Source of the DNA: Candidatus Hydrogenedentota bacterium
Lineage (GTDB): Bacteria; Hydrogenedentota; Hydrogenedentia; Hydrogenedentales; CAITNO01
Direction of reading: 5' to 3'
NCBI GenBank assembly: GCA_029554925.1
Contig: JAKPUV010000515.1
Span: 1-22,121 of the forward strand
Length of the DNA: 22,121 nucleotides
The translations under genes and the position numbers were made by a program. The stretch's first letter is position 1; every line of letters starts with the position of its first letter. Of this stretch, positions 10,757 through 12,103 are shown piece by piece. The notes below the pieces were generated by a model, which was given only the letters and a program-made list of their open reading frames with translations, did no database searches and was not told the origin of the DNA.

Positions 10757-10770
10757 GGCGGGCTCAGAGC
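10750..10770. repeat. Palindrome spanning the two convergent stop codons
   Basis: GCTCTGAG (10750-10757) and CTCAGAGC (10763-10770) are perfect inverted copies that include the stop codons of the UDG gene and of nrpR. No T-tract on either side, so it is at most a weak bidirectional end-of-transcript hairpin. Confidence 0.5.
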
Positions 10771-11783
10771 CCCCGGACGCCGGAGTAGGCCGACATGGTG
10801 CGGTGCTCCTTGAGCCGGGAGAAATCGCACAGGGTACTCATGGCCGCGCTGGTGACCTGGATGCCCTCCTCCACCACGGCGGCCACGGGGTTGAGCCCGC
10901 CGCTGAGGATGACGCCCACGCGCTCCGCGCCGACGGGGATGTCGAGCAGGGGCTGGTTGGGGCTGCCCACGGCGACCACGCCGCCCAGGCCGATCTCCTC
11001 CATGCCGCGGAAGAGGGCGCGCACGTCCGGCAGGGCCACGGCGGGCACCTCGCGGAAACTCGCGCCGATGAGGCCGGACCCCTCGCGCGACGCGCGCCAC
11101 ACGGAGGTCATGTGGCCGCGGATGAAAATCTCCAGCGGGTCGAGGGACGACCCCTCGTAGGTGATGACCTGCGTGAAGCGGCGGGGCTTGCCGTCCGTGA
11201 TCTCCAGCAGGCCGCCGAAGCGGGAGGCCATGGCGATGCCCGCGTGCAGCAGCACGCCGTTCACGCTCACGCTGCAGACCGTGCCGATGGCCGCGCGGTT
11301 CGGGGGCACGGTGAAGCCGCCGATGCGCTCGCCGGGCAGGGCGATCACCACCAGGCGGCCCATGCCCAGCCGCGCCTTGAACACGTCGGACATGATGCTG
11401 ATCGTGTTGCGCAGGTCGCGGAGCTGCACGGTGGAGATGTTCATGATGATGCGGCCGGCCCTCGAGGACAGGTCGAAGTCCATCTGGTACGAAAGGGCGT
11501 CGATCTTCCCGGCGATGAAGCCCACCTTGTCCGCCACCAGCGCCCCCTCCAGCTCCTCGATGCCCCGCGGCGTCAGACGCCGGCCGCCCCTGCCGAGGTT
11601 CTCGGTCCAGCCCAGCTCGTCCGCCATGGCCAGATAATTGCGCACCGCCCGTTCGCTGAGCTGAATGCCGCTCAGGTCGAGGGACTTGGCGATCCGCTCG
11701 CTGCCCATGCCGTCGGGCGCCTCGTGCAGCACGCGCAGGATGGCCACCATCCGCCGCTTCGTCTTAATATCCATGGATTCCAT
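10764..11783 (-). CDS. nrpR: NrpR-family (DUF128) transcriptional regulator
   Basis: 339 residues. Residues ~8-70 are a winged helix (KRRMVAILRVLHEAPDGMGSERIAKSL, then RRLTPRGIEELE). The rest is one NRD/DUF128 ligand-binding domain (VGFIAGKIDALSYQMDFDLSSRAGRIIMNIS..., GTVCSVSVNGVLLHAGIAMASRFGGLLEI..., VVAVGSPNQPLLDIPVGAERVGVILSGGLNPVAAVVE). In Methanococcus, NrpR represses nitrogen-assimilation genes and is released by 2-oxoglutarate; that protein has two NRD domains, whereas this has one, as in Methanosarcina NrpRI. Divergence from gdhA, and a matching element at the gdhA start, suggest direct control of glutamate dehydrogenase. ATG 11783 is preferred because GGGAG lies 9 nt upstream; the frame stays open to 12008 but the extension has no domain. 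Confidence 0.85.
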   Translation of the reverse strand: MESMDIKTKRRMVAILRVLHEAPDGMGSERIAKSLDLSGIQLSERAVRNYLAMADELGWTENLGRGGRRLTPRGIEELEGALVADKVGFIAGKIDALSYQMDFDLSSRAGRIIMNISTVQLRDLRNTISIMSDVFKARLGMGRLVVIALPGERIGGFTVPPNRAAIGTVCSVSVNGVLLHAGIAMASRFGGLLEITDGKPRRFTQVITYEGSSLDPLEIFIRGHMTSVWRASREGSGLIGASFREVPAVALPDVRALFRGMEEIGLGGVVAVGSPNQPLLDIPVGAERVGVILSGGLNPVAAVVEEGIQVTSAAMSTLCDFSRLKEHRTMSAYSGVRGL

Positions 11784-11820
11784 GGCGTCCGTCTCCCTTG
11801 GCCGTCCGCAGACGGCGCGA

Positions 11821-11845
11821 TTTTCCGGGGAAGCCTCCCGGAAAA
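11821..11845. repeat. TTTTCCGGG/CCCGGAAAA palindrome before nrpR
   Basis: Perfect 9-bp inverted repeat with a 7-bp spacer, about 40 bp ahead of the nrpR start codon. Its right half overlaps another inverted repeat, CGGAA-N4-TTCCG (11839-11852). Either an mRNA leader hairpin or an operator of the repressor acting on its own gene. Confidence 0.4.
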
Positions 11846-11921
11846 AGTTCCGCCTCCATTCTCGAAAAACGCGTCCGGGCCGGGGTCCGGCGCGCGAAGT
11901 GACGAAAAAGTCCCGCAATTC

Positions 11922-11941
11922 ATCCGGCACATTTGCCGGAT
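11922..11941. promoter_or_regulatory. ATCCGG-N8-CCGGAT palindrome, candidate operator
   Basis: Perfect 6-bp arms with an 8-bp spacer in the nrpR-gdhA intergenic region, centred 86 bp upstream of the element at the gdhA start. It could be a second binding site, either for looping or for nrpR autoregulation. Confidence 0.4.
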
Positions 11942-11970
11942 TTGCAGGGGTAGTTTGCACCATTTCCGGC

Positions 11971-12000
11971 TTGATATGCAAGCTTTTTCTTGGATATACT
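11971..12000 (+). promoter_or_regulatory. gdhA promoter
   Basis: TTGATA (11971-11976), 18 bp, TATACT (11995-12000). Start of transcription near 12007, leaving a leader of about 97 nt before the gdhA ATG. Confidence 0.7.
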
Positions 12001-12008
12001 CTGCCCAT

Positions 12009-12026
12009 CCGGATGCGGTATTCCGG
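12009..12026 (+). promoter_or_regulatory. Candidate NrpR operator at the gdhA transcription start
   Basis: CCGGA-N8-TCCGG, which contains GGAT-N6-TTCC (12011-12024). The operator defined for NrpR in Methanococcus maripaludis is GGAA-N6-TTCC, so one base differs. It begins about 9 bp after the -10 box, from about +2 to +20, a position where a bound repressor would block initiation. Confidence 0.5.
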
Positions 12027-12103
12027 TTCCTAGTCTTTCCGTTGCCTTAACCCTCAGCGCTCCGGCCGCAGCCGCCGCGCCAAACGCCCCAGGAGAATCC
12101 ATC

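Follow-up and report, generated by a model that had tools for sequence, protein, structure and literature searches.

Nitrogen control by NrpR in methanogens

The known system closest to the regulator considered here is NrpR of methanogens. According to excerpts of the respective papers, methanogen NrpR is a repressor which is released by 2-oxoglutarate (PMC11957540), its operator consensus is GGAAN6TTCC (PMC2723118; PMC4335013), and glnA and glnK-amtB are its targets in M. maripaludis (PMC2723118). An excerpt of the latter paper also states that NrpR occurs in certain Bacteria; excerpts of PMC9765008, PMC8809328, and PMC1852104 complete the literature basis. A bacterial NrpR operator or target is not mentioned in the titles and abstract beginnings of the open-licence PMC matches listed, while a 2007 paper on diverse homologues could touch on it.

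The nrpR-gdhA locus

The stretch of DNA analyzed here (the window) comprises 22,121 nucleotides of contig JAKPUV010000515.1 of a Candidatus Hydrogenedentota bacterium. It contains nrpR and gdhA genes which are divergently transcribed:

10764-11783, minus strand: nrpR, 339 aa, N-terminal winged helix and single NRD (Pfam HTH_12, NRD1_2)
11550-11747, minus strand: DNA-binding winged helix of nrpR, residues 13-78 (PF08461 match 13-78)
10809-11525, minus strand: NRD domain of nrpR, residues 87-325 (PF01995; phmmer match to 3nek)
12104-13444, plus strand: gdhA, NADP-specific glutamate dehydrogenase (PF02812/PF00208, PRK09414.1 equivalog)

The original prediction of a single-NRD NrpR relative divergent from gdhA was confirmed: the protein contains one PF01995 domain (E 8e-80; 267.9 bits, Pfam cut-off 25) as well as a PF08461 (HTH_12) domain (E 4e-14; 52.8 bits, Pfam cut-off 21.4), and the gdhA product matches the NADP-specific equivalog PRK09414.1 with 775.9 bits. 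The NRD aligns over 230 residues with 3nek, the MJ0159 nitrogen repressor-like protein (phmmer, E 2.6e-24). NrpR of the window is 96% identical to its relative in the same genus and 42-73% identical to other relatives in the phylum, and the seven named relatives that were found all derive from Candidatus Hydrogenedentes/Hydrogenedentota MAGs. In the genome to which the window belongs, a PII gene was not found, and the end of a contig truncates glnA.

Directly 3' of gdhA lies a gene (13493-16171) whose product of 892 aa contains a PPDK ATP-binding domain; by eye, a similar sequence also lies 3' of gdhA in locus L077 (genome G067). Elsewhere, the window encodes an 886-aa protein with ankyrin repeats over most of its length (332-2992), tandem tRNA-Phe and tRNA-Thr genes (8708-8920), and a fusion protein (9104-9694) that combines a receiver domain of response regulators with a MerR/excisionase-like HTH and is encoded next to a Fur-family gene (9697-10125).

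Promoter and palindromes upstream of gdhA

The following elements were located between the two genes:

11971-11976, plus strand: predicted gdhA -35 box TTGATA, read from the sequence
11995-12000, plus strand: predicted gdhA -10 box TATACT, read from the sequence
12009-12026, strandless: proximal operator-like palindrome CCGGATGCGGTATTCCGG, CGG-N10-CCG class (sequence and comparison)
11922-11941, strandless: distal palindrome ATCCGGCACATTTGCCGGAT, CGG-N8-CCG class (sequence; class present upstream of gdhA in 22/23 nrpR-positive genomes)
12017-12030, strandless: second GG-N10-CC register GGTATTCCGGTTCC, overlapping the proximal site (present at 6/23 gdhA sites)

As predicted, the proximal palindrome just past the -10 box contains GGAT-N6-TTCC (12011-12024), the half-sites GGAT and TTCC being one base off the archaeal consensus. 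Since it begins 8 nt after the -10 box, it covers the expected gdhA transcription start. Position and distance of the second palindrome were likewise borne out, the two being 86 bp apart (centre to centre). They are nevertheless different motifs, with a GG-to-CC gap of 10 bases in the proximal palindrome, which is the NrpR spacing, and of 8 bases in the distal one. The GGTATTCCGGTTCC register is offset by 6 bp from the proximal palindrome; overlapping NrpR sites are known for a methanogen glnK operon.

Conservation across the phylum

Of 68 genomes of the phylum, 27 were found to encode NrpR (PF01995), and in 17 of these, the flanking sequence that was fetched contains gdhA in divergent orientation to nrpR. 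Conservation of the palindrome among relatives with this gene pair had been named in the original prediction as the point to examine; a CGG-N10-CCG palindrome just past the gdhA -10 box is present in 17/17. The other ten nrpR-positive genomes include seven with a readable gdhA promoter and nrpR elsewhere, and six of the seven have the proximal site too, which supports the predicted reading as an NrpR operator. The seventh, G051, lacks the site, and its NrpR is diverged (47% identity). In total, 23 of the 24 nrpR-positive genomes with readable promoter thus carry CGG-N10-CCG at gdhA; the promoter was unreadable in G015 (no gdhA match), G020 (gdhA fragment without start), and G045 (distant GDHs only). 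Duplicate loci (L013-L019, n=7) were dropped before counting, and G051 was left out of the set of 23 used below.

When the 350 bp upstream of gdhA in these 23 genomes were scanned for CGG...CCG spacings, N10 was found in 23/23 and N8 in 22/23, while each of the 15 remaining spacings in the range from 2 to 18 occurred in 0-8 of 23, against a dinucleotide-shuffle mean of 2.5-3.0; spacings 7, 9, and 16 reached 8/23 and so exceeded that mean. For comparison, 30 of the 41 nrpR-less genomes were searched for gdhA, and 29 matched. With G006 and G016 set apart, 14 of them had a gdhA of at least 50% identity with 200 bp of upstream sequence; N10 was present in two of these, in G066 as an exact GGAA-N6-TTCC, and N8 in four, both together in none. 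The strict form CGG[AC]N7TNCCG, which was defined after the sites had been seen, occurs in 23/23 nrpR-positive versus 1/14 nrpR-less upstream regions (Fisher, 4e-9), or in 3/16 of the latter with G006 and G016 included; because the genomes are related, p-values are only indicative.

Both G006 and G016 have both site classes, and nrpR was not detected in them. These MAGs are 88% and 82% complete, respectively, and their genera include nrpR carriers; G004, a genus-mate of one of them, is also without nrpR. In G066, where nrpR was likewise not detected, an exact CCGGAAGCGAAGTTCCGG lies 198 bp upstream of gdhA (locus L051), a position unlike that of the proximal site; it may be a relic, reflect a missing contig, or have arisen by chance. 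Co-occurrence of nrpR and the site pair was observed in families f1, f2, f5, f8, and f11. Within f11, G043, G057, and G060 possess nrpR and both sites, whereas none of the nrpR-less members G049, G050, G052, G054, G064, G066, and G067 has both.

The gdhA promoters of these organisms consist of a TTGAC-like box, a spacer of N16-19, and TANNNT. In 21/23, the proximal site starts 7-11 nt past the best-scoring -10 box, the distance being exactly 8 nt in 11, as judged from a search of the 24 nt upstream of each proximal site. Three relatives (L021, L026, and L027) have a gdhA promoter with the exact archaeal form GGAA-N6-TTCC.

Association of the sites with gdhA

At six loci (L035, L036, L037, L039, L040, and L042), gdhA has kept the proximal site although nrpR is not its neighbour. 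In G002, gdhA (C62:5815-7152, minus strand) and nrpR (domain at 26639, plus strand) are about 19 kb apart on the same contig, and both sites (7237-7254 and 7391-7408) lie beside gdhA. Upstream of seven closely related nrpR genes located apart from gdhA, either site class was found in 0/7, only 57 bp being available for one of them; autoregulation of nrpR through these sites was rejected on this basis. Beyond the original prediction, comparison of the loci indicates that the distal palindrome is a spacing class of its own, which goes with gdhA and not with nrpR.

The proximal sites (n=25, those of G006 and G016 being added to the 23) have CGG, T13, and CCG as invariant positions, and the distal sites (n=26) CGG, A6, T11, and CCG; the invariance partly reflects selection, because the form CGG...CCG had guided the choice of sites by eye. 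Proximal-to-distal distances are 85-87, 119, 130, 142-157, 162, and 172-175 bp. By look, a shared 10.5-bp helical phase is not apparent among these varying distances, so that DNA looping is hypothetical. In family f5 (L021, L026, and L027), proximal and distal sites alike have CGGAA, and in the recognition-helix region of NrpR the residue after R is D in f5 (V in G028) and N in most others. The coincidence of CGGAA half-sites with this D is suggestive but confined to one clade, and in two f1 genomes, a proximal CGGAA is combined with a distal CGGCA.

Candidate sites at other genes

The genome of G028 contains three CGGAA-N6-TTCCG matches, two of them intergenic: CGGAAGTGCACTTCCG is located between the divergent gltB and glnA genes, just past the glnA -10 box, and CGGAAATGCATTTCCG lies upstream of a PII-amt pair. 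The site-bearing genes match the M. maripaludis NrpR targets glnA and glnK-amtB, as given in the excerpted text of PMC2723118. Both sites have N8-type partners, 115 and 105 bp upstream, respectively, which are imperfect at one end. Counted over all spacings from N2 to N10, CGGAA...TTCCG occurs 16 times in G028, compared to 14 times for the reversed control. In G017 and G018, N8 and N10 sites are paired upstream of a gene coding for a purF-like amidotransferase, with distances of 87 and 89 bp between the two sites; the G017 protein, on which the purF model was run, scored 169.6 bits, under the model cut-off. Genome pattern scans produced many further matches, 4/38 of those fetched lying outside ORFs according to a crude ORF caller which placed the G017 and G018 sites within ORFs as well. 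PII upstream regions (90 of 140 places scored) did not differ in score between nrpR-positive (37) and nrpR-less (46) genomes (p = 0.57 and 0.18). Because PII upstreams thus show no link to nrpR, the regulon beyond gdhA appears thin and lineage-specific.

A site pair upstream of pntA, coding for the NAD(P) transhydrogenase alpha subunit, scored 19.4 and 19.0 bits (N6) and 15.0 bits (N4) in G000 and G008:

1008-1025 of L343 (G000:C161): pntA upstream N10 and N8 pair, 99 bp apart
1215-1232 of L350 (G008:C48): pntA upstream N10 and N8 pair, 99 bp apart

The pair was absent from 13 other nrpR-positive genomes, from G006, and from five nrpR-less genomes (22 of 35 places scanned, with 38 bp only in G060), so that its known occurrence is confined to the genus of the window. 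As the pair appears by eye to be located 5' of the pntA -35 box, pntA is not counted as an NrpR target.

NrpR-like proteins of G051, G045, and G020 (42-47% identity) form a clade apart. In G051 (L024, 1043-1155) and G045 (L028, 2470-2867), the nrpR-like gene is divergent from a gene coding for a NuoE/HoxE-type [2Fe-2S] thioredoxin-like protein, assigned by Pfam for L028 and by eye for L024. L024 carries GGCAATCGATTGCC and GGCAATAGGTTGCC, with GG-N10-CC spacing as at gdhA. The protein might control a hydrogenase or an NADH-linked enzyme in the manner of NrpR.

Several glnBA upstream regions (L228, L241, L245, L246, and others) show, by eye, TGGCAC...TTGC-like boxes, which we take to be sigma-54-like. 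Perhaps two nitrogen control systems exist side by side, with sigma-54-like promoters at glnBA and sigma-70-like promoters at gdhA.

Proposed regulation of gdhA and alternative explanations

We propose that bacterial NrpR represses gdhA via the proximal palindrome and, as in methanogens, is released by 2-oxoglutarate; the probability of this reading, which draws on comparative sequence data, is estimated at about 0.77. A dimer of NrpR would bind the proximal CGG-N10-CCG over the expected gdhA start and block RNA polymerase. When nitrogen is short relative to carbon, the level of 2-oxoglutarate would rise, and its binding to the NRD would release NrpR and permit formation of glutamate dehydrogenase, which converts 2-oxoglutarate and ammonium to glutamate and would thereby close a feedback loop. 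NrpR most likely makes a second contact at the distal CGG-N8-CCG, which is located 85-175 bp upstream, and this contact might strengthen repression through side-by-side binding or looping. A bolder version, which we consider rather doubtful, is that one NrpR reads both geometries, N10 at the start and N8 85-175 bp upstream, and is shifted between them by ligand or cooperative loading. If true, gdhA promoters throughout a bacterial phylum would contain an NrpR spacing switch based on a 2-bp difference.

The identity of the protein at the distal site is the point on which another view is possible, albeit unlikely, namely that NrpR occupies the proximal site only and a different regulator of gdhA binds CGG-N8-CCG. 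Two fixed spacings (10 and 8) would be unusual for one dimeric repressor, and the distal palindrome is closer to perfect and AT-rich in its centre. However, both classes begin with the same CGG half-site, distal CGGAA is found only in f5, where the proximal site is also CGGAA and the NrpR helix has D for N, and 0/14 nrpR-less upstream regions combine the two classes; moreover, such pairs are also present upstream of glnA, PII-amt, and purF-like genes, even if the distal member is imperfect in G028. Both palindromes might instead be targets of some other, co-inherited regulator, the presence of nrpR being coincidental, as the occurrence of both sites in G006 and G016 could indicate. This is hard to reconcile with the co-occurrence of nrpR and sites in f1, f2, f5, f8, and f11 and within f11, with the divergent gene pair in 17/27 genomes, and with a spacing that fits the NrpR consensus as excerpted from PMC2723118, and we regard it as decidedly improbable.

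NrpR could also act on gdhA as an activator from the distal site, in response to a ligand other than 2-oxoglutarate. The location of that site upstream of the -35 box would suit an activator, but the proximal site overlaps the expected start, the usual position of a repressor, and the excerpted text of PMC11957540 describes methanogen NrpR as a repressor released by 2-oxoglutarate, which makes activation improbable. The proximal palindrome, being probably transcribed, might furthermore form a hairpin at the 5' end of the gdhA mRNA. Among 21 distinct sites, pair 5-14 is indeed C-G instead of A-T in two, but it is A-T in 14 and mismatched in five, pair 6-13 can form in 7/21 only, with mismatches in 14/21, and the f5 sites have the exact archaeal operator form. 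Because pairs outside the three invariant ones are often mismatched, a DNA site is favored, and a role of the palindrome as RNA structure seems very improbable indeed.

Comparison with known systems

NrpR has been studied in archaea; a probable bacterial target, a candidate operator pair, and a small putative regulon are now laid out, and a single purified protein together with short DNA fragments would suffice to test the proposal. What appears to be new is gdhA as the core target of a bacterial NrpR, together with a conserved operator pair of two spacings. Like the NrpR proteins of M. maripaludis and Methanosarcina mazei, which repress nif, glnA, and glnK-amtB, the window protein combines an NRD with an N-terminal helix-turn-helix. 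The GG-N10-CC spacing, the exact GGAA-N6-TTCC in some relatives, and the predicted nitrogen-assimilation targets also resemble those of methanogens, which suggests that the archaeal operator spacing has been kept across domains. For nif under methanogen NrpR, the title of a 2005 paper by Lie likewise speaks of "two operators". The regulatory domain is homologous to the NRD structure of MJ0159 (PDB 3nek), but distant, and whereas Methanococcus NrpR has two NRDs, the window protein has one. Unlike in methanogens, the putative operator is placed in a bacterial -35/-10 promoter, the core target would be gdhA, a second palindrome has N8 spacing, and sites at glnA and PII-amt are present in one relative only (G028). 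NtrC/sigma-54 control of bacterial glnBA is likewise a form of nitrogen control, and sigma-54-like boxes are found in these organisms too; in contrast, gdhA appears to be served here by another sigma factor and another regulator.
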